The translations under genes were made by a program, and so were the position numbers. This document shows positions 1-44,229 of a stretch of DNA of 64,000 bases, piece by piece; positions within the stretch are counted from its first letter, which is position 1, and every line of letters begins with the position of its first letter. The stretch spans positions 1-64,000 of the forward strand of contig JALGYY010000025.1 of assembly GCA_025782575.1 (NCBI GenBank). Direction: 5' to 3'. The notes beneath the pieces were generated by a model. That model searched no databases. It had not been told where the DNA came from and saw only the letters and a list, made by a program, of their open reading frames with translations. The stretch comes from a bacterium (lineage in GTDB: Bacteria > Orphanbacterota > Orphanbacteria > Orphanbacterales > Orphanbacteraceae).

Positions 1-2097
1 ATGGCACTGATTACACGACAACCCGCCATGTCCCTGGGTCAGTGAAAAGACATTGTGATCGAAAGTGCCGTCACCCCAACCGCCGATGTCATGACACTCG
101 GCGCAGTCGGTCGGGAAGCCGGCGTCTACATGATCGGGGTCGGCAGTCGACTGGAAGTCGGTCAGGTGACAGTCTTCGCAATTCGATGGAGTCCCCTGGA
201 ATACGCCGTTCAAATGACACTCATTGCACGACAACCCGCCATGACCTTGGGTCAGTGAAAAGAATGAATGCTCCACTTCCGCGCCTTCCCAGCCGGCGAT
301 CGAATGGCACGATCCGCAGTCTATCGGGAAGCCGGAAGCCTCATGATCCGGATCCACTGTCCCCTGGAAGTCGCCGAGATGACATGCTTCACAATCGGCC
401 TGCGTTTCGTCGTAGGGTCCGCTCACATGACACTGGGCACACTCCAGTCCGCCATGCCCCTGAGAGAGAGCGAAAAAGTCGTGAGGCACCGCAGCGCTTT
501 CCCAGCCTCCTATGTCGTGGCATGCTTGGCAATCTGTCGCGAAAGCAGCTTCGGCATGATTCGGACTCCGGGTAGTTTCATAATCTGCGAGATGACACGC
601 TTCGCAATCGCTCGCCGTGCTCTCGAACAGGCCGTCTGTGTGACACTGGACGCAGTTCAGACCGCCATGGCTCTGCTCCAGCGCGAAGAACGAATGTTCC
701 GCTCGGGCACCTTCCCAGCCGGCGATCGAGTGGCACACTGTACAATCGAGTGGGTATCCGAGAACTCCATGATTCGGATCGAGCGTCTCCTGATACTCGC
801 TTAGGTGGCACGATTCACAATCGGACTGCGTCTCGCTGTAGGGTCCGCTCACATGACACTGGGCACACTCCAACCCCCCATGTCCCTGAGAGAGAGCGAA
901 AAAGTCATGAGGCACCGTAGCGCTTTCCCAGCCCGCGATGTCATGACACGCGCTGCAGTCTGTCGCGAACGCGGCTTCCCTATGATCCGGGCTCTCGGTT
1001 GCTTCATAATCCGCGAGGTGACACGCTTCGCAGTCGCTTATCGTGTTCTCGAACACGCCGTCCGTATGACACTGGACGCAGTTCAATTCGCCATGGCCCT
1101 GCTCCAGCGCGAAGAATGAATGCTCCACTTCCGCGCCTTCCCAGCCGGAGATTAAGTGGCATGATCCGCAGTCGAGCGGGTACCCGGAAGTCTCATGATT
1201 CGGATCAACCGTCGTTTGATAGTCGATGAGATGACATGCTTCACAATCGGCCTGCGTTTCGTCGTAGAGTCCGCCCACATGACACTGAGAACACTCCAGT
1301 CCGCCATGCCCCTGCGAAAGAGCGAAAAAGTCGTGAGGCACCGTAGCGCTTTCCCAGCCCGTTATGTCATGGCACTCGGCGCAGTCTGTTACGAACGCAG
1401 CTTCAGAATGATCCGGACTCTCGGTCGCTTCATACTCGGCGAGGTGACACGCTTCGCAATCGCTCGCCGTGTTCTCGAACACGCCGTCACCATGACACTG
1501 GCTGCACTCCAGACCGTCATGGCCGTCTGAGAGAGCGAATGATTCGTGTTCGAAATCGGCATCCTCCCAATCGGAAGCGCTATGACACATTGCACAATCC
1601 ATAGGGAACCCGGAGGACTCGTGGGCGGGCTCCTCCGCTTCCTGATAGTCGCTGAGATGACATGCTTCGCAATCGGCCGATGTCTCCTCGTATGGACCGC
1701 TTACATGACAGTCTACGCACTCCAGACCGCCATGCCCCTCAGTCAAGGCGAAGTCATCGTGATCAATGGTCGCGCGTCCCCAATCTTCGATATCATGGCA
1801 CTCTGCGCATTCGGTAACGAAACCCGCCTCTTCGTGGTTCGGGCTTTCGGCTGCTTCGTAATCCGCCAGGTGACACGCTTCGCAATCGTTTGCCGTGTTC
1901 TCGAACAGGCCGTTCACATGACACTGTCCGCACAAAAGGCTTTCATGCCCGGCACTTAATGAGAAGAAACTGTGATCGAAGTCAGCGCCTGCCCATCCTC
2001 TGGTTTCGTGGCAGGACGAGCAGTCTGTGGGGAATCCGGATTCCTCGTGATGAGGCTCTCTTGCCTCATCATAATCGCTCATGTGACATGCTTCACA
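1..2097 (-). repeat. 213/426-bp tandem coding repeats in the cytochrome
   Basis: Direct DNA repeats inside the cytochrome gene. The same sequence block recurs at 483, 909 and 1335, exactly 426 bp apart, and each 426-bp unit holds two diverged 213-bp halves. About ten halves are visible. The near-identity of neighbouring units suggests expansion by unequal recombination, so copy number may vary between strains and may be mis-assembled in short-read genomes. Confidence 0.9.
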
Positions 2098-2583
2098 ATC
2101 AACAGGCGTGTTCAGATAGTCCATGGAACCGGAGAGATCGACCTGATGGCAGGCGTCGCAGTCGGTTGTGATATGAGCACCTGTCAGCGGAAACTGTCCG
2201 AGTTGATGGCCACGCCTAAAAAACGCGCGATCCTGAAAACGGCTTGTCGTGTGGCATGTGGAACAGTCGAGGCCGAACTCTCCCTGATGAACATCCTGGT
2301 GGCAATCGACACAGTTCGTGCCCGGTACATTGAATCGAAGTGTGGGATGGCAGCTCGAACAGGGTGTATTGGCGTGACCCTGGTCGAGCGCGAAACCGAA
2401 CCGTCCATGGTCCCATTTATCATCGTATCGAGCCGGTGACCAGGCATCGGGACCGTGACACTGACCGCAGTCCTCCCGGTACTTGCCGTGGGGATACTTG
2501 CCGGGCTCTTCGGGAATCGACCAGGCGCTCCCCGCGAATAGAACCAGCATGAGAATCTGGACGGCCGTTCGTTTCCCGGTCAT
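1..2583 (-). CDS. giant tandem-repeat multihaem cytochrome c, 3' end beyond window
   Basis: The frame stays open on the minus strand from ATG 2583 to the window edge (861 codons, no stop). A signal peptide (residues 1 to about 22, ending in AGSAWS) is followed by five CXXCH motifs. From residue 163 a 71-residue unit repeats to the edge, about 9.8 copies. Each unit carries three CXXCH (types CEACH, CSACH, CAQCH) and three further conserved His (in PDH, PH and GH contexts), which suits bis-His ligation of three haems. I count 35 CXXCH; the last ends on base 1. Units alternate in type, giving a 142-residue (426-bp) super-repeat. The start overlaps the stop of the upstream 20-haem cytochrome by 4 nt (ATGA), suggesting translational coupling. 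Likely a periplasmic or surface electron conduit (inference). Plus-strand ORFs here are shadows. Confidence 0.93.
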   Translation of the reverse strand, partial: MTGKRTAVQILMLVLFAGSAWSIPEEPGKYPHGKYREDCGQCHGPDAWSPARYDDKWDHGRFGFALDQGHANTPCSSCHPTLRFNVPGTNCVDCHQDVHQGEFGLDCSTCHTTSRFQDRAFFRRGHQLGQFPLTGAHITTDCDACHQVDLSGSMDYLNTPVDCEACHMSDYDEAREPHHEESGFPTDCSSCHETRGWAGADFDHSFFSLSAGHESLLCGQCHVNGLFENTANDCEACHLADYEAAESPNHEEAGFVTECAECHDIEDWGRATIDHDDFALTEGHGGLECVDCHVSGPYEETSADCEACHLSDYQEAEEPAHESSGFPMDCAMCHSASDWEDADFEHESFALSDGHDGLECSQCHGDGVFENTASDCEACHLAEYEATESPDHSEAAFVTDCAECHDITGWESATVPHDFFALSQGHGGLECSQCHVGGLYDETQADCEACHLIDYQTTVDPNHETSGYPLDCGSCHLISGWEGAEVEHSFFALEQGHGELNCVQCHTDGVFENTISDCEACHLADYEATESPDHREAAFATDCSACHDIAGWESATVPHDFFALSQGHGGLECAQCHVSGPYSETQSDCESCHLSEYQETLDPNHGVLGYPLDCTVCHSIAGWEGARAEHSFFALEQSHGGLNCVQCHTDGLFESTASDCEACHLADYETTRSPNHAEAAFATDCQACHDIGGWESAAVPHDFFALSQGHGGLECAQCHVSGPYDETQADCEACHLGDFQGTVDPDHEASGFPIDCGSCHSIAGWEGAEVEHSFFSLTQGHGGLSCNECHLNGVFQGTPSNCEDCHLTDFQSTADPDHVDAGFPTDCAECHDIGGWGDGTFDHNVFSLTQGHGGLSCNQCH

Positions 2584-4415
2584 GACCTGCCTCCACTGGA
2601 CCCATCCTCCTTGAGCTCGCCCGTTGTGTGACAGCTTTCGCACCTTCCATCCAGCGGTTTGTATCGTACTGCCGCACTTGCGAGTTTCGGATCCGCCAGG
2701 TGACACTCCCGGCAAGCCACGTCTGCATGAGCTCCCTGGAGGGGAAATATCGAATCTGTTTCGTGGTTAAACCGCCCGGCAGGACGGAACGCGACGCTAT
2801 CGTGACATGACTCGCAGCTCTTCTCGAACTGCCCCCCGTGTTGATCGGCGTGACAGGATCCACAGGTGCTGTGTTCAACTTCAAATCGAATCGGTACGCG
2901 TTCCGATACCGCAAGCAGGAGTGATGAACCTGCCTGTATATCTTTCAAATCCGCATGACACTCCATGCAGGGCACGGCCCGGTGGGCCCCTTCAAGTTTG
3001 TACTCGAATCGATTGTGAAAGGCCGCGTCTACGAGGGCCGGCCGAAACAGCTCCGTGTCGTGGCATTGCTCGCATTTCTTTTCGGGATGGTCGCCCGGAT
3101 ACCTGGCGTCGTGAGCATCTCGATGGCACTCACCGCACGTCTCGCTTGCGGGATAGAAGGCGACACCGGCGCGGCCGAGCAGTTCCCTGTCAGGGAGAGG
3201 TGGTAGAAATTCGCGCTCCGGGCCGTGGCAGGAAGCACAATTCGCACGCGCGTGCCCTCCGGTCAGATCGAACGATGTGCTGCCATGGTCCTTTATGTCG
3301 AACGTACTGGGACGCCATCCGTCCGGCGTGTGACAGGCTTCACATGCGCCCTTGTCATTTCGGGCGGCGAGCTGGCCTTCATGTGCATCCTTGTGACATT
3401 CGGAACATTGTTTGAACAGCGGCCGGAGAAGCACCCCGGCATCTCCTCGCTCGACCCTGGCGGGTCCGGAATCTTCTTTCGCATGGCACTTCTCGCATGA
3501 AGCATCGCGATGATTTCCACGCAGGGGAAAGCGGGAGGCGTCGTGCATGGCAACTGTGAATGTAGAGGGGCGGAATGACTCCTCGTTGTGGCACCCGGCG
3601 CAATCCGCATACGCCCCGGCAAGAGTAGCCTTCCCGGCGTGGGGATCGGTATGGCAATCCCCGCACTTCTCGAACCGGGGGAACCGGCCCCATGCCTTGT
3701 CGCTGTCGTGACACACCGCGCATGTCAGCTGTGTGTGAGCGCCCCGTAATCCGTAACGAGTTTTCGAGTGGTCAAACCGATCTCCTACCACTTCATGGAA
3801 GGATCGGGCCGTGTGACAATCGGCGCAATTCGTCCCCAACCTCCCCTTGTGCACATCTTCGTGACAGGAAGCGCAGTCACCATCGAGGCCGATCCAGGCC
3901 CGTCCGGAATTTCCTGATTGGAGCAATTCCAGAACCTTCGAGAGCCGGAAGTTCTGGTTGTGGCATTTCTCGCACCCCGCTTCCTTGTGCTTCCCTTGGA
4001 GCGGCCACCCGGCTCGTTCATGGTCAAACGCCTCCGGTTTCAGAGTCGCTTCATCAATCAACTGGAAATCCCGGCCTCCGTGCTCGGGGTGACAGGCGGC
4101 GCAATCCGAGCGCCCCTCCCTCCCGTGAAGCCCCCGATCCCGATCGACGAGCCACGCGATCCCCTCGTGACACTCCAGGCACTTATCATTGAGTGCCATG
4201 TCCTTCCCCAGCGCGTGGCATTGGAGACAGTTGAGCGCCCCTTCCCATTCTTCATGAACCTCCGCCAGAGGGCCCGGGGAGAACTGGGACCAAGCCGATT
4301 TCGGGAAGATCATGAGAACGGCTACGAGCACGAATAGCGCGCTCAGATCAGCTGCGCTCCCCCACCCCATGCTGGCGCTATACGGTTGCAAGGCTGCTCT
4401 CCGGAAGAGGGACAT
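2580..4415 (-). CDS. 20-haem periplasmic cytochrome c
   Basis: A 611-residue protein with an N-terminal hydrophobic segment (about residues 22-42, ending SAWSQ) and 20 CXXCH motifs, beginning with CLQCH and ending with CESCH. Many extra His occur as GxH, FDH and DAH, as expected for bis-His haems. Unlike the downstream cytochrome, its units are diverged rather than near-identical; recurring features are GxHxxxxCxxCH and FRP. The start at 4415 overlaps the oxidoreductase gene by 38 nt and gives a positively charged n-region; ATG 4370 would avoid the overlap but leaves no charge. The stop overlaps the next gene by 4 nt. Probably a soluble or anchored electron carrier between the membrane oxidoreductase and the giant cytochrome (inference from order). 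Confidence 0.92.
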   Translation of the reverse strand: MSLFRRAALQPYSASMGWGSAADLSALFVLVAVLMIFPKSAWSQFSPGPLAEVHEEWEGALNCLQCHALGKDMALNDKCLECHEGIAWLVDRDRGLHGREGRSDCAACHPEHGGRDFQLIDEATLKPEAFDHERAGWPLQGKHKEAGCEKCHNQNFRLSKVLELLQSGNSGRAWIGLDGDCASCHEDVHKGRLGTNCADCHTARSFHEVVGDRFDHSKTRYGLRGAHTQLTCAVCHDSDKAWGRFPRFEKCGDCHTDPHAGKATLAGAYADCAGCHNEESFRPSTFTVAMHDASRFPLRGNHRDASCEKCHAKEDSGPARVERGDAGVLLRPLFKQCSECHKDAHEGQLAARNDKGACEACHTPDGWRPSTFDIKDHGSTSFDLTGGHARANCASCHGPEREFLPPLPDRELLGRAGVAFYPASETCGECHRDAHDARYPGDHPEKKCEQCHDTELFRPALVDAAFHNRFEYKLEGAHRAVPCMECHADLKDIQAGSSLLLAVSERVPIRFEVEHSTCGSCHADQHGGQFEKSCESCHDSVAFRPAGRFNHETDSIFPLQGAHADVACRECHLADPKLASAAVRYKPLDGRCESCHTTGELKEDGSSGGRS

Positions 4416-5832
4416 CCTTCTTGATCATGCGAACGCCGATGCGTTCCAGAAATGGAAACGGCGGCTCGCCGCCGATTCGAATGATGACGTTGTCGTTCGG
4501 CATGGTTCGCTCTTCACCATCTACCTGAATCCGGACGGATTCCGATTCAATGGCAGCGAGCTCACTGTTCAACAGAATTTCGATCTTGCCGTCACTTACG
4601 GCCCGGTCGAGTTTCTCCCTGTTCCGATCTTTGACACGCTTGAATTCACTGCCACGGTAGCTGAGATGTACAGCCGTCCCCTCCTGATTGGCAATTCCGA
4701 GCGCTGACTCGATCGCGCTGTCACCACCTCCCACGACGAGAACTTTACGATCGCGGAACGCTTCCATCTCGACGACGTCGTAGAATACTTTTTCGAGATC
4801 CTCTCCTGCGACTCCGAGTCGCCGGGGTGTCCCGCGGCGACCGAGAGCAAGGACTACTTTATGGCTTGAGTAAGTTTCGTCCCCCGCCCTTACCAGAATC
4901 TCCGACCCCTCTCGCTTGATATTCTCCACCCGGCGCTGGGTTAGAACCTTCAGGCCCGTGTTGGCGATAATGGTTTCCCAGATCTCGATCAGCGTTTCTT
5001 TCGAAGAGTCCGCTACCCAGAGATCGCCATAGAGCGGAATCTTGATCGGTTCGGCAAAGAGAACCTTGTGCCGCGGATAGCGGCGGATTGTATCGGCGAG
5101 GTCGCCCTGCTCCAGAACGATATACTTCATGCCTCGGCGATGGGCTTCGAGCCCGGCGCTCAGGCCGGCCGGCCCCGAGCCGACAATGACGACATCCAGC
5201 GTTTCACCTGATGAATTCTCCGGACCGGACTCTTCCTCTTTGAAAAGTTCCTCCGCAATGCTCTCTACGGCGAGCTTTCCTTCATTGATGGCGTTCTTAA
5301 TCAGCCCCCGCCCACCAAGCTCACCCACGAGATAGATGCCGTCCACATTGGTTGCGAACCGGGCATCCACCTCGGGAACCTCCACCTGGTGAACGGCGTC
5401 GCCGGTGGTCATCAGGATTCCACCGACCGGACACGCTTCGGCGCATTTCCCATGCCCCAGACAAAGCTGCTTGTCAACTACCGCCAGTTTCCCTTCCAGT
5501 CGTATGGCTCCCGCTTCGGGGCATACCGGAACACAAGTCGCGCATCCGACGCAGATATCGGCGCGAATGACGGCGTGGTGCTGCAGACCTGCGTCTTCTC
5601 CTTCAGCTGCTACCCTGGAAATGGGAGCGGCGACAACTTCGTAGATCTGGCGGGGCACACCGCAACCCGGGCAGAATGTCGCCTCCGCCGGTGCCGGCAC
5701 GCCACAACGGGGACAAGGTGGTCCTGATGGTTTCGGAGCGGCGGATTGTACGCTTCCGCTTGCCTTCAGGTGGGAGCGGACGCACACCACCGTAATCAGC
5801 ATGAGCAATACTGTCACAATCATCATTGCCAC
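4378..5832 (-). CDS. membrane-anchored FeS/FAD pyridine nucleotide oxidoreductase
   Basis: A 484-residue modular protein. Order: one N-terminal membrane segment (residues 1-20); a zinc ribbon (C40, C43, C54, C57); a ferredoxin-like pair with C94, C97, C100, C104 and C124, H127, C130, C134; a short GIYLVGELGG stretch near 165; then a thioredoxin-reductase-like FAD domain (GSGPAG near 218) and an NAD(P) domain (VVGGGDSAIES). In the second cluster His127 stands where the second Cys of CxxCxxC is expected. It lies 12 nt after the membrane cytochrome b gene and before two multihaem cytochromes. A role moving electrons between pyridine nucleotide or ferredoxin and the haem chain is inferred; direction is not determinable from sequence. 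Confidence 0.88.
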   Translation of the reverse strand: MAMMIVTVLLMLITVVCVRSHLKASGSVQSAAPKPSGPPCPRCGVPAPAEATFCPGCGVPRQIYEVVAAPISRVAAEGEDAGLQHHAVIRADICVGCATCVPVCPEAGAIRLEGKLAVVDKQLCLGHGKCAEACPVGGILMTTGDAVHQVEVPEVDARFATNVDGIYLVGELGGRGLIKNAINEGKLAVESIAEELFKEEESGPENSSGETLDVVIVGSGPAGLSAGLEAHRRGMKYIVLEQGDLADTIRRYPRHKVLFAEPIKIPLYGDLWVADSSKETLIEIWETIIANTGLKVLTQRRVENIKREGSEILVRAGDETYSSHKVVLALGRRGTPRRLGVAGEDLEKVFYDVVEMEAFRDRKVLVVGGGDSAIESALGIANQEGTAVHLSYRGSEFKRVKDRNREKLDRAVSDGKIEILLNSELAAIESESVRIQVDGEERTMPNDNVIIRIGGEPPFPFLERIGVRMIKKDVPLPESSLATV

Positions 5833-5844
5833 TTTGCGTCGCTC

Positions 5845-6873
5845 CTACCAGAACCAGGTTGCGCGCATCAGGACCACAACCGCCACATGAAGGGTGACCG
5901 CAATGAGAGCCGTGACCGCAATCGGTCGATGGGCTACGTGCCAGAATGCGAAGACGCGATGAGTGGATTCGAGAGCGCGCGTCTGCTGGGCATGCGCGAT
6001 TTGCAGATTGGCCAGATAAAGCACTCTTTTTACCGACTTTGGGCCGATCACCCTGCCCCCTTCCACGGACGCCCGCCACTCCTTCATGAAGGAGCGAACC
6101 GCCCGGCGGCGCTCCCAGTCATCCCGGAGAAGCTGTTTCATTGTGGTGATCAATCCCAGATTCTCATACTCGGGCACCTTCGGCGATAGCCGGTCCATCA
6201 TCTTCCTGATGTCTGTTCCGGTCTCTGCCGCGATCTGGCTGAGAAGCATGTCCCGCTCCCGGGCAATCTCATCCATTGTCAGTTCGATGCCGCCGAGGGT
6301 TCGTGGGATTTTGCAATACAGATACCGCCCGACTACGCCGCTGCAGCAGACGAGAAACATGGCTCCATACCCGAGTCCGATTATCCCTGTGAAACGCCAG
6401 CCGGCATGAGTGGCCCCCAGCAATGGAATCAAAAATCCGGCAGCGATATGGACATCGAGCCAGCGTGGTACCGGACCTGTAAACGATAGAAACCGAAAAC
6501 GCTTACGAAGGGGGTAGAGCCAGAGAAACAGGAACAGGGCGAACGCCAGAATGCCCGCACTCTGTCCCACATACCCGGATGGTCCGAGCCACGCGTGCAT
6601 TGGTTCCCGTATGCGCTCGTTCAGAGGGAGCATGTAGTAACGAATCCCGAATATGTTCAAGACCAGGATGAAGATTGCAGGCGCAAGTGAGAGTCTCAGC
6701 GTAAGTCTCGGCCTCTTGCCGGTCGATTGAGGCACCTTCACTTTGGTGGGGGCAGTGGGTTTCAACTGAGAACCCGCTATTGCTGCAGGGCACACGATCC
6801 CGTCCTCCTCCACACATCCACCGACATGTGACAGATATTGGCTCCCATCCTCGGGGCGTGACCGGCGATCCAT
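5845..6873 (-). CDS. membrane b-type cytochrome-like protein
   Basis: A 342-residue membrane protein with about five hydrophobic segments: residues 57-80, 100-120, 135-160, a segment containing VCCSGVVGRYLY, and one at the C-terminus. Histidines fall in or beside the membrane segments (DVHIAAGF, GATHAGW, WHVAHRP, TLHVAVV), the pattern of a dihaem cytochrome b. A charged soluble stretch (about residues 200-285) separates the fourth and fifth segments. The first 50 residues are not membrane-like, and the start at 6873 has no clear ribosome site, so the true start may lie downstream. First gene of the operon; likely links the oxidoreductase and the quinone pool to the periplasmic haems (inference). 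Confidence 0.72.
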   Translation of the reverse strand: MDRRSRPEDGSQYLSHVGGCVEEDGIVCPAAIAGSQLKPTAPTKVKVPQSTGKRPRLTLRLSLAPAIFILVLNIFGIRYYMLPLNERIREPMHAWLGPSGYVGQSAGILAFALFLFLWLYPLRKRFRFLSFTGPVPRWLDVHIAAGFLIPLLGATHAGWRFTGIIGLGYGAMFLVCCSGVVGRYLYCKIPRTLGGIELTMDEIARERDMLLSQIAAETGTDIRKMMDRLSPKVPEYENLGLITTMKQLLRDDWERRRAVRSFMKEWRASVEGGRVIGPKSVKRVLYLANLQIAHAQQTRALESTHRVFAFWHVAHRPIAVTALIAVTLHVAVVVLMRATWFW

Positions 6874-7479: not shown

Positions 7480-8847
7480 TTGAATCGGGAACGATTCGTG
7501 CAGGAGTTCGGATTGAGCAAGGTCTATATCGGCTTACTCGAGTTGAGCGGTGAGGCCAACCCCCACTGGGACGCGATCGCTGATGATATTGGTCTGGCGG
7601 TGCGCCCGATGGAACAGGACGGGCCGATACGATCCGGCAACGGCGCGGCTGCTCTCGTTGTCTCTGCGGCGGGAGCCGAACAGGCCGCCATCGACTGGCT
7701 CGACAATACCGATATGCCGGCCGGCATTCCGCTCTTCGTCGTCGGGTCTGACACCGGCCACAGGATTGCCGCGCGATTGATCGGACACGGCGCGACCGAC
7801 TACATGGCGCTGCCCGACGACGGCGAGCTCCTTCGGAACGCGCTCGCCTCCGCTGCCCAAAGGCGAATCGAAACTTCGCGCCGCTCGGGTATCGGAAGCG
7901 AAACCGATGCCGACGATCCCTTTGTTGAGCTGATCGGGCGAAGCGGCGCGATCCGCCGGGTTCTCGATCAGGCGAGGCGGATCCTGCCTCATCGTCACGC
8001 GACGGCACTGATCGTCGGCGAGACCGGTACGGGCAAAGAACTGCTCGCACGGGCCATCCATCGGGGGGGCCAGAGAAGAGTAGCGCCGTTTGTGGCGCTC
8101 AATTGCTCGGCGTTACCGGCAAACCTCTTCGAGTCCGAACTGTTCGGCTACGAAAGAGGCGCGTTCACCGACGCCAGGCAAGCCAAGCCCGGTCTGTTCG
8201 AAGTCGCGGACGGAGGCACGCTCTTCCTGGATGAGATCGGCCTGCTGCCACTGGAACTGCAGGCGAAACTCCTCCGCGTTCTGGAGGATCATGAGGTCCG
8301 TCGAGTGGGCGGTACGAAGTCGAGAAAAGTAGATCTTCGTATTCTGGCAGCAACGAACGAAAACCTGACCACTGCGGTGGAGGAGAAGAGGTTTCGCGAA
8401 GATCTCTTCTATAGAGTGGGCGTTATCAACCTGACACTCCCTCCTCTCCGAAGCCGGGGAGAAGATGTGATCCTCATCGCGGAAGCTCTACTGAAACAGA
8501 TGGCCGGACGCCACGACCTCGCTTTGCCGCCCATGGGGCCCGAGATCCGTAGCGCCCTCTGCAGCCATCGTTGGAAAGGAAATGTGCGAGAGTTGAAGAA
8601 CTCCCTGGAAAGATGCCTCCTGCTTTCGCCGCCGGGAGAACTGGTACCCGAAGAACTCGGCATCCTTCCGGCAACCGATATCGAAAAAGACAATAGAATT
8701 CCATTCCCCGCAAAGCTGAGCGAGATCACATCGTCAGCCGTTCGATCCATGCTCGAGATCTGTGGTGGAAATCGAAGTGAGGCGGCGAGACGCCTCGATA
8801 TATCCCGCAAGCGACTCCGTCGGATTCTGGAGAGCAGCGGAGGATGA
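7480..8847 (+). CDS. sigma-54-dependent transcriptional activator, variant GAFTDA
   Basis: 455 residues. The N-terminus (to about residue 130) resembles a response-regulator receiver fold, but I see no convincing phospho-acceptor Asp (ALVVSAAG, then LFVVGSD, then GATDYMALP). The AAA+ domain has Walker A GETGTGKE (190-197) and the sigma-54 contact loop at 227-232, which reads GAFTDA instead of GAFTGA. Walker B follows as GGTLFLDEIG. A Fis-type helix-turn-helix ends the protein (NRSEAARRLDISRKRLRRIL). The start is TTG 7480 with a weak AGGA upstream; GTG 7498 is an alternative. The next two genes follow in the same direction and may be its partners. Without a phosphorylation site, control may come from protein binding or expression level (inference). 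Confidence 0.88.
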   Translation: MNRERFVQEFGLSKVYIGLLELSGEANPHWDAIADDIGLAVRPMEQDGPIRSGNGAAALVVSAAGAEQAAIDWLDNTDMPAGIPLFVVGSDTGHRIAARLIGHGATDYMALPDDGELLRNALASAAQRRIETSRRSGIGSETDADDPFVELIGRSGAIRRVLDQARRILPHRHATALIVGETGTGKELLARAIHRGGQRRVAPFVALNCSALPANLFESELFGYERGAFTDARQAKPGLFEVADGGTLFLDEIGLLPLELQAKLLRVLEDHEVRRVGGTKSRKVDLRILAATNENLTTAVEEKRFREDLFYRVGVINLTLPPLRSRGEDVILIAEALLKQMAGRHDLALPPMGPEIRSALCSHRWKGNVRELKNSLERCLLLSPPGELVPEELGILPATDIEKDNRIPFPAKLSEITSSAVRSMLEICGGNRSEAARRLDISRKRLRRILESSGG

Positions 8848-8900
8848 GCGACATAAATTGAATCAGCAACTTTGACCGACAAAACGATTGAGGTGGACCA

Positions 8901-9560
8901 ATGCGAAGACTCTTAAAAGCCCCGCTTCCCATGCTCCTCCTGTTGTTAATCACGGGCCTTCCAACGGTTTCCTGCGTGGAACTGGGGGCGGCGCCGGATG
9001 ACAGCGGGTCGAATGTAGATCGAGCACTTCCGTTTGCTTTAGTGTCAAAAGAGCCCACAGCCGTTCTTCAGGCGGAAAGCGCACCACCACTCGAAACGAC
9101 GGTGCAATCATTCTGGATCGTGAAAGGCGAATCCTCTGAAATCGAGATCAAGTATGCCCCTCCGGGGGAGAGCCTCGAGGACTTCCTCGATGTCGAATTC
9201 GGTGAAGAAGCTCTACTCGCTCATCCGGATGGGACCCCGATTGCCGAAGGTGAAAGTGTTCTTATTACGTTGACCGTCCATCCCTCGAAATTCCAGGTGA
9301 GTTTCGAGCCGTCCGGTCTTCAAATCGATCCCGACCATCCTGTGGTTATCGAGTTCAAGTATGAGCATGCCGACCACGACTTCGATCGGGATGGGGACAT
9401 GGACGAGGCAGATGAACAGATTCGGGTCGAAGAGCTCGGCATCTGGAAACGTGCCGCTCCCGGCCAGGTCTGGACTGAGACCGAATCCGATCACGACACG
9501 CTTGATCAGAAGATCAAGACAGAGGTCTGGTCTCTGGAGAACATCGCAGTCTCCTGGTAG
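8901..9560 (+). CDS. predicted lipoprotein with acidic calcium-like loop
   Basis: 219 residues, family not recognised. A hydrophobic signal (about residues 6-22) ends in TVSC, an imperfect lipobox, so export and possibly lipidation are likely. The body is acidic and probably beta-rich. Near residue 157 the stretch DHDFDRDGDMDEADEQ resembles a calcium-binding DxDxDG loop of EF-hand or dockerin type. A GAGGTGG ribosome site precedes ATG 8901. It lies 53 nt after the sigma-54 activator and 33 nt before a TPR gene, so co-transcription is likely. Function unknown. Confidence 0.7.
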   Translation: MRRLLKAPLPMLLLLLITGLPTVSCVELGAAPDDSGSNVDRALPFALVSKEPTAVLQAESAPPLETTVQSFWIVKGESSEIEIKYAPPGESLEDFLDVEFGEEALLAHPDGTPIAEGESVLITLTVHPSKFQVSFEPSGLQIDPDHPVVIEFKYEHADHDFDRDGDMDEADEQIRVEELGIWKRAAPGQVWTETESDHDTLDQKIKTEVWSLENIAVSW

Positions 9561-10756: not shown

Positions 10757-11041
10757 ATGACATTGATCGAACTGGCTCAGGGAGAATGGGGGAGAATCGA
10801 CTATCTGGAGGGTGACGAGAAGCTCTGTCGCCGCCTTCTGGAATGTGGATTCACACCGGGAGAGCCGGTTCGCTGTGTCGCGACCTCCCTATTTCACGAT
10901 CCGTTAGCCGTCAATGTGCGGGGAGCCCTGTTCGCCCTTCGGTCAGATGAGGCGGCCTGCATCAAAATCTGCCCCCGCGGCCGTCGCCGCCGCCGGCGGG
11001 AGTGCCGGAAACGAAAATGTCGGCAGACGACCCCGGAGTAG
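10757..11041 (+). CDS. feoA: ferrous iron transport protein A
   Basis: 94 residues. The first 72 form an SH3-like FeoA domain (LAQGEWGRIDYLEG, LLECGFTPGEPVRCV, DPLAVNVRG, FALRSDEAACIKI). FeoA binds the cytosolic part of FeoB and supports Fe(II) uptake. The last 20 residues are unusual: a run of Arg with Cys and Lys (RGRRRRRRECRKRK). This tail is encoded where the gene runs into feoB, so it may have grown by stop-codon loss. The gene overlaps the FeoB frame by up to 40 nt. Confidence 0.9.
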   Translation: MTLIELAQGEWGRIDYLEGDEKLCRRLLECGFTPGEPVRCVATSLFHDPLAVNVRGALFALRSDEAACIKICPRGRRRRRRECRKRKCRQTTPE

Positions 11042-13050
11042 AAGGGGGCGTCCGGGATGACGCCGCCTCCGATGATGCCTATTGCCCTCCCCCCTCCCGG
11101 CGCGCGCAGCCGCTTGTCGCACTTACCGGCATGCCCAACTCTGGCAAGACCACTCTGTTCAACGCGCTCACCGGATCGCGCATTCAAACGGCCAATTATC
11201 CGGGCTCCACGGTAGAACACTCCGAAGGAAAACTGAACACGGGCGCCGGCGAGCTCCGCCTCCTCGATGTACCCGGGATCACGAGCCTCTCACCCAGCTC
11301 TCAGGATGAGATGATTGCGGTGCAGGCGCTTTCCGGTCACTCCCCTCCGGGAATTCCGGAGGCATACATCGCGGTCGTAGATGCAACGCAGTTGGAAAGG
11401 CACCTCTATCTTGCCCGGCAGCTTCAGGGTATCGGCCGTCCTGTTCTGGTGGCGATCACCATGGTGGACATTCTCGAGAAGGGGAAGGGGTATCGGCTCG
11501 ATTCGTCCGCCCTCGAGAGAGAACTCGGTTGCCCGGTCGTTCCCGTGAACGGCGTAAGCGGTTTGGGAATCGAACGGCTCCGCCAATTGATTGGAGAGCT
11601 GATCGCCGATAGAGACCGCCAGGCCGGAACTCCGGCACACCCCAATCAACCGATCGAGTTTCCCCGGCCCACGTTCGACGAAATCTCGGAGAGCTATCGA
11701 GAGCTGAAGATACTCTCGGCCAAAGTTCTTATCTCGATCGGAAAGGAGCGGGCGCCCGCCGGCAGCGATCAAGGACGACCCGGAATTGACTTTCCCGATT
11801 CGAGAACCGAGAAGTTCGACAAAATCTTTCTTCATCCCATTTTCGGAATCGTCGTGTTCGCGGCGATCATGGCGATTATTTTCACGTCGATTTTTACTCT
11901 CGCGCAACCTCTTATGGACCTTGTTGATAATCTCTTCGCGGGGATGGCGACGATCTTGACGGGGGCACTTCCTCCATCCTGGTTCACGAGCCTCCTTGCA
12001 GACGGCATAATTACGGGGGTCGGCGCTCTCTCCATATTCCTGCCGCAGATCTTTATTCTGTTTCTCTTCCTCGGATTTCTGGAAGACAGCGGGTATCTCG
12101 CCCGCGGTGCGATGCTGGTCGACCGCTTTCTGGCATCGGTCGGGCTGAGCGGACGAGCGTTCGTCCCCATGCTTTCCGGCTTTGCCTGCGCCGTACCTGC
12201 CATGATGGCCGCACGCACCATGGGGAGCAGACGGGAGCGATTGCTCACCATCGTGATTCTGCCACTCATGCTTTGCAGCGCGCGACTGCCGGTCTACGGA
12301 TTGCTGCTCGCATTTCTCACTCCGCCCGACAAGCCGTGGATCGGCGGCCTCAGCCTCACCGCCCTTTATCTCTTCAGCGCATCGGCCGGGCTCGTGGTCG
12401 CCGCACTGCTCGGGCGACTACTCGGATTCAAAAAGAGAGATCGCGCCCCCCTGCTTCTTGAACTCCCGGCCATTCGAAGACCGATGGCTCGTGTGGTCTT
12501 TCGAACTACTCTTCATCGCACCCTTTCCTACGTTCAGAAGGCAGGGCCGACGATTCTTGTGGTCGCTGTGATCCTCTGGGTTCTCACGCATTTTCCATCC
12601 CAGACCGGGATGTCCGAAGCGGAGCAGCTTGCAGGCTCATGGGCGGCATCACTCGGTCATTTTCTGGAGCCCGTCATGCGGCCGCTCGGCCTTGACTGGC
12701 GTGTCGGCGTGGCGCTGATCTGCGCGTTTTCCGCGCGGGAAGTATTTGTCAGCGCCCTCGCACTTACCCTGATGGTAGCCGCTACCGGGGACGCCGTTCA
12801 GTCCTCGCTCCTTCTGGCCATGCGAAACGCCACACTTCCGGACGGTTCGCCGTTATTCACACTCGCTTCCTGTATCGGACTTATTGTATTCTTTATATTC
12901 GCCCTCCAGTGCATGGCAACACTGGCAGTCAGCCGACAGGAGTCGGGTGGGTGGCGCGTCCCCGGCCTTCAACTTATCTTGTACAATGCCGTCGCCTATA
13001 TGGCAGCGGTGATCACGGTACAAGGCCTGCGATTGATCGGAGTCTCTTGA
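11002..13050 (+). CDS. feoB: ferrous iron transporter B, GTPase-permease
   Basis: 682 residues. The N-terminal G domain shows G1 GMPNSGKT (43-50), the G2 region NYPGST (65-70) and G3 DVPG (89-92). The G4 position reads TMVD where NxxD is usual, so guanine specificity may be altered. A helical domain follows, then a polytopic membrane part with two Gate-type blocks (including GFLEDSGYLARGAM and the mirror-related RTTLHRTLSYVQKAGPTIL) and AFSAREVFVSALAL. It imports Fe(II) across the inner membrane. GTG 11002 is the longest start; ATG 11017 is equally possible, and both lie inside feoA. Confidence 0.95.
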   Translation: MPETKMSADDPGVEGGVRDDAASDDAYCPPPSRRAQPLVALTGMPNSGKTTLFNALTGSRIQTANYPGSTVEHSEGKLNTGAGELRLLDVPGITSLSPSSQDEMIAVQALSGHSPPGIPEAYIAVVDATQLERHLYLARQLQGIGRPVLVAITMVDILEKGKGYRLDSSALERELGCPVVPVNGVSGLGIERLRQLIGELIADRDRQAGTPAHPNQPIEFPRPTFDEISESYRELKILSAKVLISIGKERAPAGSDQGRPGIDFPDSRTEKFDKIFLHPIFGIVVFAAIMAIIFTSIFTLAQPLMDLVDNLFAGMATILTGALPPSWFTSLLADGIITGVGALSIFLPQIFILFLFLGFLEDSGYLARGAMLVDRFLASVGLSGRAFVPMLSGFACAVPAMMAARTMGSRRERLLTIVILPLMLCSARLPVYGLLLAFLTPPDKPWIGGLSLTALYLFSASAGLVVAALLGRLLGFKKRDRAPLLLELPAIRRPMARVVFRTTLHRTLSYVQKAGPTILVVAVILWVLTHFPSQTGMSEAEQLAGSWAASLGHFLEPVMRPLGLDWRVGVALICAFSAREVFVSALALTLMVAATGDAVQSSLLLAMRNATLPDGSPLFTLASCIGLIVFFIFALQCMATLAVSRQESGGWRVPGLQLILYNAVAYMAAVITVQGLRLIGVS

Positions 13051-41652: not shown

Positions 41653-41831
41653 TGCTTCTCATATTTGTCAGCGCTGTCCTCGTCGCCGGAGGGCTCGTTC
41701 TCTTTTTGAAGGGAATCGCCTCGGGGGATTTCGAACACGGAGACCGTCTGTCGTTATTACCACTGGAGGAGGATGACGAGCCGGACTCGACGGACGGCGA
41801 TGCATCTCCCCCGAAGCCACTTTCAACATAA
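41640..41831 (+). CDS. ccoS: cbb3 oxidase assembly protein CcoS
   Basis: 63 residues. One membrane segment (residues 3-23) followed by FLKGIASGDFEHGD and an acidic tail, as in CcoS, which is needed for cofactor insertion into CcoN. GTG 41640 lies inside the end of ccoI, a 13-nt overlap typical of this gene pair. Confidence 0.88.
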   Translation: MDVIVLLIFVSAVLVAGGLVLFLKGIASGDFEHGDRLSLLPLEEDDEPDSTDGDASPPKPLST

Positions 41832-41847
41832 AGGAGTATCTGGAAAC

Positions 41848-44229
41848 ATGGAGGCGCAATCCGTAGAAACACGGAAAATCGTCTACGATGATGCGATCGT
41901 TCGCGCGTTTATCGCCGCTTCGGTCATATTCGGCGTCGTAGCGCTGCTCGTGGGCGTGCTGATCGCTTCGCAGCTGGTCTTCTGGGAACTGAACTTCGGC
42001 CTTTCCTGGCTTTCGTTCGGCAGGCTCCGGCCGCTCCACACAAACGCCGCGATCTTCGCGTTCGTCGGGAACATGATGTTCGCCGGGATTTACTACTCGA
42101 CCCAACGGCTGGTCAAGGCCCGCATGGCGAGCAACTTCCTCAGCTGGTTCAACTTCTGGGGCTGGCAGCTCGTCATAGTGGGAGCCGCAATCACTCTCCC
42201 ACTCGGTCTGACTCAATCAAAAGAGTACGCCGAGCTCATATGGCCGCTCGACATTCTGGTTGTGGTCACCTGGGTCGTTTTTGCGGTGAACTTCTTCTGG
42301 ACCCTGGCTGTTCGAAACGAGCGGAACCTCTATGTGTCCCTCTGGTTCTACATCGCCACCATCGTTACGATTCCCATTCTCTACATCGTGAATAACCTGC
42401 AGCTTCCGACCAGCCTGCTCCACAGTTATCCGATTTATGCCGGCGTACAGGACGCGCTCGTTCAGTGGTGGTACGGGCATAACGCGGTAGGATTCTTCCT
42501 GACCACGCCCATTCTCGGGATCATGTACTACTTTATTCCAAAAGCGGCTGGTCGGCCGGTCTACTCCTACCGGCTGTCTGTGGTCCATTTCTGGTCGCTC
42601 GTCTTCCTCTATATCTGGGCCGGGCCGCACCATCTTCTCTATACCGCGCTTCCCGACTGGGCGCAGACCACGGGAATGGTCTTCAGTATCATCCTGCTCG
42701 CACCATCATGGGGGGGGATGCTGAACGGATTGCTTACCTTACGCGGCGCCTGGGATAAGCTTAGAACCGACCCGGTTCTGAAGTTCATGGTCGTCTCCGT
42801 CACGTTCTACGGCATGTCCACATTCGAAGGGCCGCTACTCTCGATCAAATCGGTCAACTCCCTCGCCCACTACACGGACTGGATCATCGGCCACGTACAC
42901 GGCGGCACGCTCGGCTGGAACGGATTCATGGCGGCGGCCATGTTCTACTGGCTCGTGCCACGACTCTACAAGACCAAACTCTGGTCCGTTCGATGGGCGG
43001 AAGCGCACTTCTGGATCGGCACGATGGGTATGCTGTTCTATGTGGTCGCCATGTGGATCAGCGGCATCAACCAAGGGCTTTACTGGCGCGCCCTCGACAC
43101 CGAAGGATTCCTGAAGTACCCCGATTTCGTCGAAACGCTACTCAGCCAGCGATTCCTTTATCACATGCGTCTTCTAGGCGGCACTGCTTACCTCACCGGC
43201 TTCCTCATGATGGGCGTCAACCTGCTGCTCACCGCACAGGCGGGGCAGAAAGTAAATGGCCAGGCAACGGTCAAGCGGCTCCCCCGTTACACCGGCCCCG
43301 GATTCTGGGAGCTTGTAAGAGGCGCTCCCGCCGTCCTCTCCGCACTCGTCGTAGTCGCTGCCATCCTGTTCGGTCTGGCGGATCCGACGCAAAGCCCGAT
43401 ACTCCTCGGAATCGGCACCGTGATCGTAATAGCCGCCATTCTCTATGGTGGCGCCGCGAAAAAGGGATGGCACCATCTACTGGAGGCGCGGCCGCTCGCG
43501 TTTACTATTCTGACTCTGTTCGCGATTCTGATCGGCGGCCTTGCGGAACTCATCCCGACAGTGGTCATCCGGAAAGAAGTGCCCATCGAACCGGTCGTTC
43601 AGACCGCGGGAACGGACAGTCTCGGGGCGCAGGCCGCGGAAGCCGTCACGGCGGAAGCTACGCCGGAGTCGAAGTGGAGGCAGAAACCATACAGCCCGCT
43701 CGAACTCGAAGGTCGAGACATTTATGTCCGTGAGGGGTGCTACTCATGCCACTCGCAGATGATCCGGCCCTTCCGCCATGAAACGCTTCGGTACGGCGAT
43801 TACTCCCGCGCCGAAGAATACATCTATGACAGGCCGTTCCAGTGGGGTTCGAAACGGACCGGTCCGGACCTTCATCGTGTCGGAGGTAAGTACCCCAATC
43901 TCTGGCACTATCTCCACATGAGGGATCCACGGAACACTTCCGAGGGGTCGATCATGCCGAGTTATAAGTTCATGACAGATGCGGTGGCCAAGATCGATAA
44001 CCTGCCGGCCAAGATGGAGGCGCTTCGTAGACTGGGCGTACCGTACGACGAAAGCGACATTCGAAACTCCGTGCAGACCGCTCGGAGCCAGGCGGCGTTG
44101 ATCGTTACCGATCTCGCTTCGCAGGACATCACGTTGTCCGCTGACAGCGAATTGACAGCGCTGATCGCCTATCTGCAACGACTCGGACGGGGCCCGCAAC
44201 CGACGGCACTCGAGAAAGTGGAGAGGTAG
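41848..44229 (+). CDS. ccoNO: cbb3-type cytochrome oxidase, fused CcoN-CcoO
   Basis: 793 residues from ATG 41848, preceded by AAAGGAG; the longer frame from 41773 reads through ccoS. Residues 1 to about 470 are CcoN with twelve membrane segments and metal-ligand motifs (RPLHTNAAIFAFVG; VQWWYGHNAVGFFLT; AGPHHLLYTALP; HVHGGTLGWNGF). Two more membrane segments form a linker (about 510-590). Residues about 600-793 are CcoO with one haem c site, CYSCH near residue 631, followed by SQMIRPFRHE. The enzyme reduces oxygen with high affinity and pumps protons. Fusion is known in several phyla. Confidence 0.96.
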   Translation: MEAQSVETRKIVYDDAIVRAFIAASVIFGVVALLVGVLIASQLVFWELNFGLSWLSFGRLRPLHTNAAIFAFVGNMMFAGIYYSTQRLVKARMASNFLSWFNFWGWQLVIVGAAITLPLGLTQSKEYAELIWPLDILVVVTWVVFAVNFFWTLAVRNERNLYVSLWFYIATIVTIPILYIVNNLQLPTSLLHSYPIYAGVQDALVQWWYGHNAVGFFLTTPILGIMYYFIPKAAGRPVYSYRLSVVHFWSLVFLYIWAGPHHLLYTALPDWAQTTGMVFSIILLAPSWGGMLNGLLTLRGAWDKLRTDPVLKFMVVSVTFYGMSTFEGPLLSIKSVNSLAHYTDWIIGHVHGGTLGWNGFMAAAMFYWLVPRLYKTKLWSVRWAEAHFWIGTMGMLFYVVAMWISGINQGLYWRALDTEGFLKYPDFVETLLSQRFLYHMRLLGGTAYLTGFLMMGVNLLLTAQAGQKVNGQATVKRLPRYTGPGFWELVRGAPAVLSALVVVAAILFGLADPTQSPILLGIGTVIVIAAILYGGAAKKGWHHLLEARPLAFTILTLFAILIGGLAELIPTVVIRKEVPIEPVVQTAGTDSLGAQAAEAVTAEATPESKWRQKPYSPLELEGRDIYVREGCYSCHSQMIRPFRHETLRYGDYSRAEEYIYDRPFQWGSKRTGPDLHRVGGKYPNLWHYLHMRDPRNTSEGSIMPSYKFMTDAVAKIDNLPAKMEALRRLGVPYDESDIRNSVQTARSQAALIVTDLASQDITLSADSELTALIAYLQRLGRGPQPTALEKVER

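Follow-up and report, generated by a model that had tools for sequence, protein, structure and literature searches.

A candidate PCC3-type electron conduit with a conserved flavin/iron-sulfur subunit in Orphanbacterota and other mostly uncultured phyla

The window analyzed here, a 64,000-bp stretch of an Orphanbacterota genome (G000:C7:1-64000; assembly GCA_025782575.1, contig JALGYY010000025.1), begins with four minus-strand genes for a b-type cytochrome, a flavin- and iron-sulfur-containing (FeS/FAD) oxidoreductase, a 20-heme c-type cytochrome, and a giant multiheme c-type cytochrome. Together with a fifth gene, for an outer-membrane β-barrel, they probably encode an extracellular electron conduit of PCC3 type that crosses the cell envelope and has its own redox module in the cytoplasm, judging by gene content and motifs. 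Two features were unexpected: the set has a conserved flavin/iron-sulfur subunit, and it is carried by a wide range of phyla.

Gene content and assembly

Base 1 of the window is the end of its contig, so that the giant cytochrome gene is cut by the assembly. The four open reading frames (ORFs) lie at 5845-6873 (cytochrome b), 4378-5832 (FeS/FAD protein), 2580-4415 (20-heme cytochrome), and 1-2715 (giant cytochrome), all on the minus strand. A 12-bp gap separates the first two genes, the FeS/FAD and 20-heme ORFs overlap by 38 bp, and the likely start of the giant gene, an ATG at 2585-2583 with GGAGG upstream, overlaps the stop of the 20-heme gene; this tight spacing suggests that the four genes form one operon. 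An initial annotation of the DNA had described these four adjoining genes with at least 55 c-type hemes, and the ORFs, Pfam matches, and motifs agree with it, as does the count of 20 + 35 = 55 CXXCH motifs in the window.

The same annotation held that the giant gene continues past the edge, and its remainder lies on contig C6 (13,526 bp), the end of which matched the window's first 3 kb in a DNA search of the window genome. C6 ends with the same 45 bases with which the window begins, and the join preserves both the reading frame and the repeat phase. The minus strand of C6 carries the end of the giant cytochrome, with 15 CXXCH motifs (1 shared with the window) and a stop codon (L004:12462-13526), followed by a 553-amino-acid barrel ORF (L004:10834-12495) that overlaps the giant ORF and has an aromatic C-terminal residue. 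The full set is then cytochrome b, FeS/FAD protein, 20-heme cytochrome, giant cytochrome, and barrel, and a porin-like barrel, which the initial annotation had not seen, is present beyond the contig break. The assembly of another genome of this phylum, G004, is broken in that gene as well. Its contig C40 stops within the repeats and shares an exact 141-bp overlap with the end of C53, beyond which lie the 3' end of the giant gene and the barrel gene. A chance fusion of two unrelated genes at the C6/C7 join was rejected on the grounds of the 45-bp overlap, the barrel profile match on C6, and this parallel break.

That profile was built from 33 relatives of the barrel, excluding the window genome's own copy, and it matched one copy in the window genome, the one on C6 (E = 3.9e-129). 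Of the seven phylum genomes searched, only G000, G002, and G004 carry the barrel, in 1, 1, and 2 copies, respectively, the same pattern as cytochrome b. An AlphaFold model of a relative (L017; mean pLDDT 84.5) has a small N-terminal β domain and ∼22 long strands, and its fold matches in the PDB are outer-membrane barrels (ushers, Occ/OprD porins, AlgE, and PfeA) with low TM-scores. Going by this predicted fold, the protein that follows the giant cytochrome is an outer-membrane barrel.

Multiheme cytochromes

The 20-heme cytochrome (2580..4415) has a signal peptide and 611 amino acids, or 30.6 per heme, and we infer that it is the periplasm-spanning subunit. The first part of the giant cytochrome (1..2585, within an ORF that is open from 2715 and runs for 905 amino acids to the contig edge) contains 35 heme motifs; joined to its remainder, the protein comprises 1200 amino acids from the ATG, with 49 CXXCH motifs at 24.5 amino acids per heme. 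We give this number as at least 49, since the C6/C7 overlap lies among the repeats, where more units may be missing, and the whole system accordingly as at least 69 c-type hemes (20 + at least 49). The repeat is a 71-amino-acid triheme unit with a heme spacing of 30/16/25; the initial annotation had correctly noticed a repeat, but its 142-residue super-repeat is two such units.

The joined protein has 100 histidines for its 49 CXXCH motifs, leaving 51 outside the motifs, or about one extra (distal-ligand) histidine per heme, a count fitting bis-histidine ligation. Neither CX3CH or CX4CH motifs nor any CXXC without a following H were found in the cytochromes, which argues that the CXXCH motifs are not chance occurrences. 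Spurious CXXCH motifs from low-complexity sequence were ruled out by the heme spacing and the histidine counts. Pfam matches of the cytochromes are to Cytochrome_C7, Cytochrom_CIII, and Cytochrom_c3_2.

Membrane cytochrome and FeS/FAD protein

The b-type cytochrome (5845..6873) is a protein of ∼342 amino acids with five predicted transmembrane (TM) helices, counted by eye in the sequence and from a helical structure model (pLDDT 84.7). Numbered from base 6855, it has the histidine pairs H136/H150 and H309/H323, which belong to two WX3HX13H signatures (W132/H136/H150 and W305/H309/H323), and an SGVVG motif at 172-176; these motifs of the PCC3 inner-membrane protein are kept in nearly all full-length relatives. 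Weak Pfam matches in the family are to Ferric_reduct, DUF4405, and b561, with Ferric_reduct (PF01794) reaching E = 4e-4 in the best family member and 10.6 bits, below the cutoff of 28, in the window protein.

The FeS/FAD protein (4378..5832) is predicted to be a membrane-anchored pyridine-nucleotide oxidoreductase. It has an N-terminal hydrophobic segment (recognized by eye), two [4Fe-4S] motifs, and a YpdA/TrxR-type FAD/NAD(P) domain, with Pfam matches to Pyr_redox_3 and Fer4, as well as zinc-ribbon-like CxxC pairs whose Pfam match is below the cutoff. Among solved structures, it is closest to those of YpdA/Bdr, thioredoxin reductases, and TrxR-like ferredoxin-NADP reductases. No relatives were found in viral contigs.

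Conservation across phyla

We scanned for relatives by cytochrome b alignment and kept 80 loci of 209, many of them on truncated contigs. These loci come from Candidatus Eisenbacteria, Gemmatimonadota, Acidobacteriota, Neomarinimicrobiota, Calditrichota, Zixibacteria, Bacteroidota, Ignavibacteriae, and KSB1, and one is labeled Deltaproteobacteria. The FeS/FAD gene is present in 71/80, at least two multiheme cytochromes are present in 60/80, and a barrel is detectable in 44/80; among the 31 well-flanked loci the corresponding counts are 30, 31, and 22. In 54 loci the FeS/FAD gene lies on the same strand as, and within 150 bp of, the cytochrome b gene. Gene order is often that of the window set but varies, with the FeS/FAD gene after the barrel in L012, L018, and L085 and the cytochromes and barrel ahead of cytochrome b in several Acidobacteriota. 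One of these loci, L012 (G004:C35), is a second, rearranged five-part copy in G004, consisting of cytochrome b, two 19-heme cytochromes, barrel, and FeS/FAD protein. Pairwise distances of cytochrome b, FeS/FAD protein, and barrel correlate (r = 0.78, 0.86, and 0.66; reached by 0/1000 permutations), with shared species history contributing to these values. The co-occurrence of the set, with a barrel at its end, supports the initial annotation's proposal of a membrane-to-surface heme conduit.

The exact five-gene order is found on plasmid pEMTOL02 of Emticicia oligotrophica DSM 17448 (NC_018749.1, EMTOL_RS21090-RS21110), where the two cytochromes have 23 and 40 hemes and the annotation goes no further than hypothetical, NAD(P)-binding, and cytochrome c3 family proteins. 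Like the window, this cluster encodes cytochrome b (28% identical), FeS/FAD protein (35% identical), two multiheme cytochromes, and a barrel-like protein; unlike the window, its FeS/FAD protein lacks the zinc-ribbon region and ccsA precedes the cluster. Other matches to the FeS/FAD protein in a tblastn search of plasmids (Pseudoalteromonas, Sphingobium, and Persicobacter) were partial, mostly to the flavin domain alone, and no cytochrome genes adjoin the one such match inspected, that of Pseudoalteromonas. A plasmid tblastn search for proteobacterial PCC3 returned only Emticicia, plus weak matches in Acetobacter and Spirosoma.

The two cytochromes differ in how their heme numbers vary among relatives. 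In 40/47 cases the first large cytochrome carries 23 or 20 hemes, while the second carries 10 to 88 (median, 27.5) and in most complete copies has a C-terminal cap (a CH-rich tail with a CY.CHP-like end). A fixed-length cytochrome beside a length-variable one is what would be expected of a periplasm-spanning rod with a free outer extension. Relatives of the giant cytochrome in two Saprospiraceae/Bacteroidetes metagenome-assembled genomes (L082 and L093) have 82 and 88 heme motifs, the latter exceeding the 85 hemes that were the largest number known in 2017 according to He et al. (PMC5566968).

Comparison with known systems

The closest described system is PCC3, which He et al. (2017; PMC5566968) defined as a porin, a repeat-rich extracellular cytochrome (median of 34 and up to 85 hemes), a periplasmic cytochrome (median of 21), and an inner-membrane protein of ∼300 amino acids with five TM helices, SGXXG on TM4, and WX3HX13H on TM3 and TM5. 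The window set has an inner-membrane protein with the same size, topology, and motifs; a cytochrome with 20 CXXCH motifs and a signal peptide that fits the periplasmic subunit in its predicted location; a very large, repeat-built cytochrome that may correspond to the extracellular one; and a barrel gene directly after it. The initial annotation had stated that the arrangement matched none it knew, having compared only Mtr, Omc, and Cbc; its exclusion of Mtr agrees with the scores given below, but novelty of the arrangement is not supported, as parts, heme numbers, and motifs are those of PCC3 plus the FeS/FAD gene. That fifth gene departs from the published four-gene composition without a flavoprotein, and we therefore file the set, on its composition and motifs, as a variant of PCC3 rather than PCC3 itself. 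Two further differences are its occurrence in at least nine nonproteobacterial phyla and a barrel of ∼22 strands compared with the larger size of many PCC3 porins (up to 42 TM). The words FAD and ferredoxin are absent from the main text of He et al., later papers keep the four-gene PCC3 (Gallionellaceae, PMC10734462; Sideroxydans sp. CL21, PMC12442390), and we found no description of an FeS/FAD-containing set in open-licence papers.

Other systems resemble the set in part. PCC4 of He et al. shares an inner-membrane protein with the same motifs and has other redox proteins in its clusters, including an Fe-S gene in one subgroup, but it has three small periplasmic cytochromes (4, 5, and 10 hemes) and no extracellular one. 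MtrCAB and MtoAB would work alike, with a cytochrome through a barrel and an outer cytochrome, but have 10 and 10 hemes versus 20 and at least 49 here; membership in Mtr/Omc was rejected from NCBIfam scores far below the cutoffs (DmsE, 38.1 bits versus 192.2; OmcA/MtrC, 17.9 versus 209.3). NOX and FRE proteins also combine two HX13H heme pairs in a membrane protein with a flavin-NAD(P)H module, a likeness that holds if the path proposed below is right; they differ from the window set in that the latter has separate subunits, a YpdA/TrxR-like FAD fold, and iron-sulfur clusters. We did not assign the set to NOX or the ferric reductases, given the Ferric_reduct score and a flavin domain of YpdA/TrxR type on a separate protein instead of an FNR-type one in the same chain. 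Nanowire-like conduction, for which the initial annotation named multiheme proteins of this size as candidates, is only an analogy.

Proposed electron path and alternatives

We infer the localization, redox partner, and path of the conduit from its genes, and draw each step as two-way, the direction (outward respiration or inward uptake) not being readable from sequence. On the cytoplasmic side, NAD(P)H and/or ferredoxin would exchange electrons with FAD, FAD with the two [4Fe-4S] clusters, and these with the two b-hemes of the five-TM protein. From there, electrons would cross the periplasm along the 20-heme cytochrome and pass through the outer-membrane barrel to the giant cytochrome outside, which would meet a mineral, another cell, or a diffusible partner. 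The FeS/FAD protein and cytochrome b could in this way act like a split NOX, with NAD(P)H, FAD, clusters, and two b-hemes in sequence leading out. The conserved FeS/FAD subunit suggests NAD(P)H or ferredoxin as the entry point, and not solely the quinone pool; that entry bypasses quinone we propose only tentatively.

Several points weigh against the conduit as drawn. The join of the two contigs has as its basis a 45-bp overlap within a repeat and the parallel case in G004. A cytochrome b profile searched against PDB sequences and the model searched against PDB folds gave no meaningful match, and the nearest folds of the modeled barrel are generic porins and ushers. One well-flanked locus, L024, lacks an FeS/FAD gene within 10 kb of its cytochrome b, two cytochromes, and barrel, and the function of PCC3 itself is stated as unverified (PMC12442390).

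The alternative that survives best, though we think it rather unlikely, is PCC3 proper as modeled by He et al. (PMC5566968), in which cytochrome b has the quinone pool as its electron partner and the FeS/FAD protein plays an accessory part instead of serving as the entry point. The proteobacterial four-gene PCC3 works, if at all, without this gene, as L024 would have to, and the kinship of its best-scoring solved relatives, YpdA and the thioredoxin reductases, would suit an accessory role in thiol/disulfide repair of CXXCH cysteines during heme attachment. A thiol reductase has no need of two [4Fe-4S] motifs, however, while a relay to heme does, and the FeS/FAD gene adjoins cytochrome b in most loci, with correlated divergence.

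Unlikely to a greater degree is an inward conduit for electron uptake by Fe(II) oxidation, with electrons going to a cbb3 oxidase and in part uphill to NAD(P)+ or ferredoxin. PCC3 is found in, and discussed for, Fe(II) oxidizers, and the window encodes a cbb3-type oxidase at 41773-44229 (+) with COX1 and FixO fused in one ORF (a ccoN-ccoO fusion); against this, it is strongly uphill to reduce NAD(P)+ directly from heme with electrons of Fe(II), some carriers belong to groups generally held to be heterotrophs, and direction is not something that sequence can give. A periplasmic electron store, with the giant cytochrome retained in the periplasm and the barrel unrelated to electron transfer, is improbable: Hoover et al. 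mention that PCC3 hemes might store charge and the giant's surface exposure is a prediction only, but the barrel gene follows that of the giant, the two recurring together in different phyla, barrel distances track those of cytochrome b, and variants of up to 88 hemes would hardly fit across the periplasm.

Neighboring and related genes

Divergent from the conduit genes, at 7480-9560 (+), are a sigma-54 activator gene and a small unassigned gene, probably for a lipoprotein (C terminus LENIAVSW). As the pair is kept at the same place in G004 (L009:3314-5372; 57% and 39% identical), it may regulate the conduit operon. A few kilobases from the conduit, on the opposite strand at 10757-13050 (+), lie feoA and feoB for ferrous iron transport (FeoA, E = 6.5e-17; FeoB_N, E = 2e-44); neither was seen next to the conduit in the G004 and G002 loci examined. 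Further Cytochrome_C7-type multiheme genes of the window genome occur in a cluster at ∼671-677 kb of C2, at ∼74 and 184 kb of C7, and on C11, C13, C17, and C40.

Implications

PCC3 has so far been described as a four-gene, quinone-linked system found mainly in Proteobacteria; here a five-gene version extends across mostly uncultured phyla and is also present in a cultured Bacteroidota strain, E. oligotrophica DSM 17448. The near-fixed 20/23-heme subunit beside one of 10 to 88 hemes also leads to a geometric prediction, open to test, as to which of the two cytochromes reaches across the periplasm. It is possible, if still doubtful, that these loci represent a distinct lineage of surface conduits in at least nine phyla outside the Proteobacteria, in which a split NOX-like pair would couple the NAD(P)H/ferredoxin pool to the surface without the quinone pool. 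With the five-gene set, the electron partner in the cytoplasm becomes the subject of a specific hypothesis, and E. oligotrophica offers a culture for testing it.

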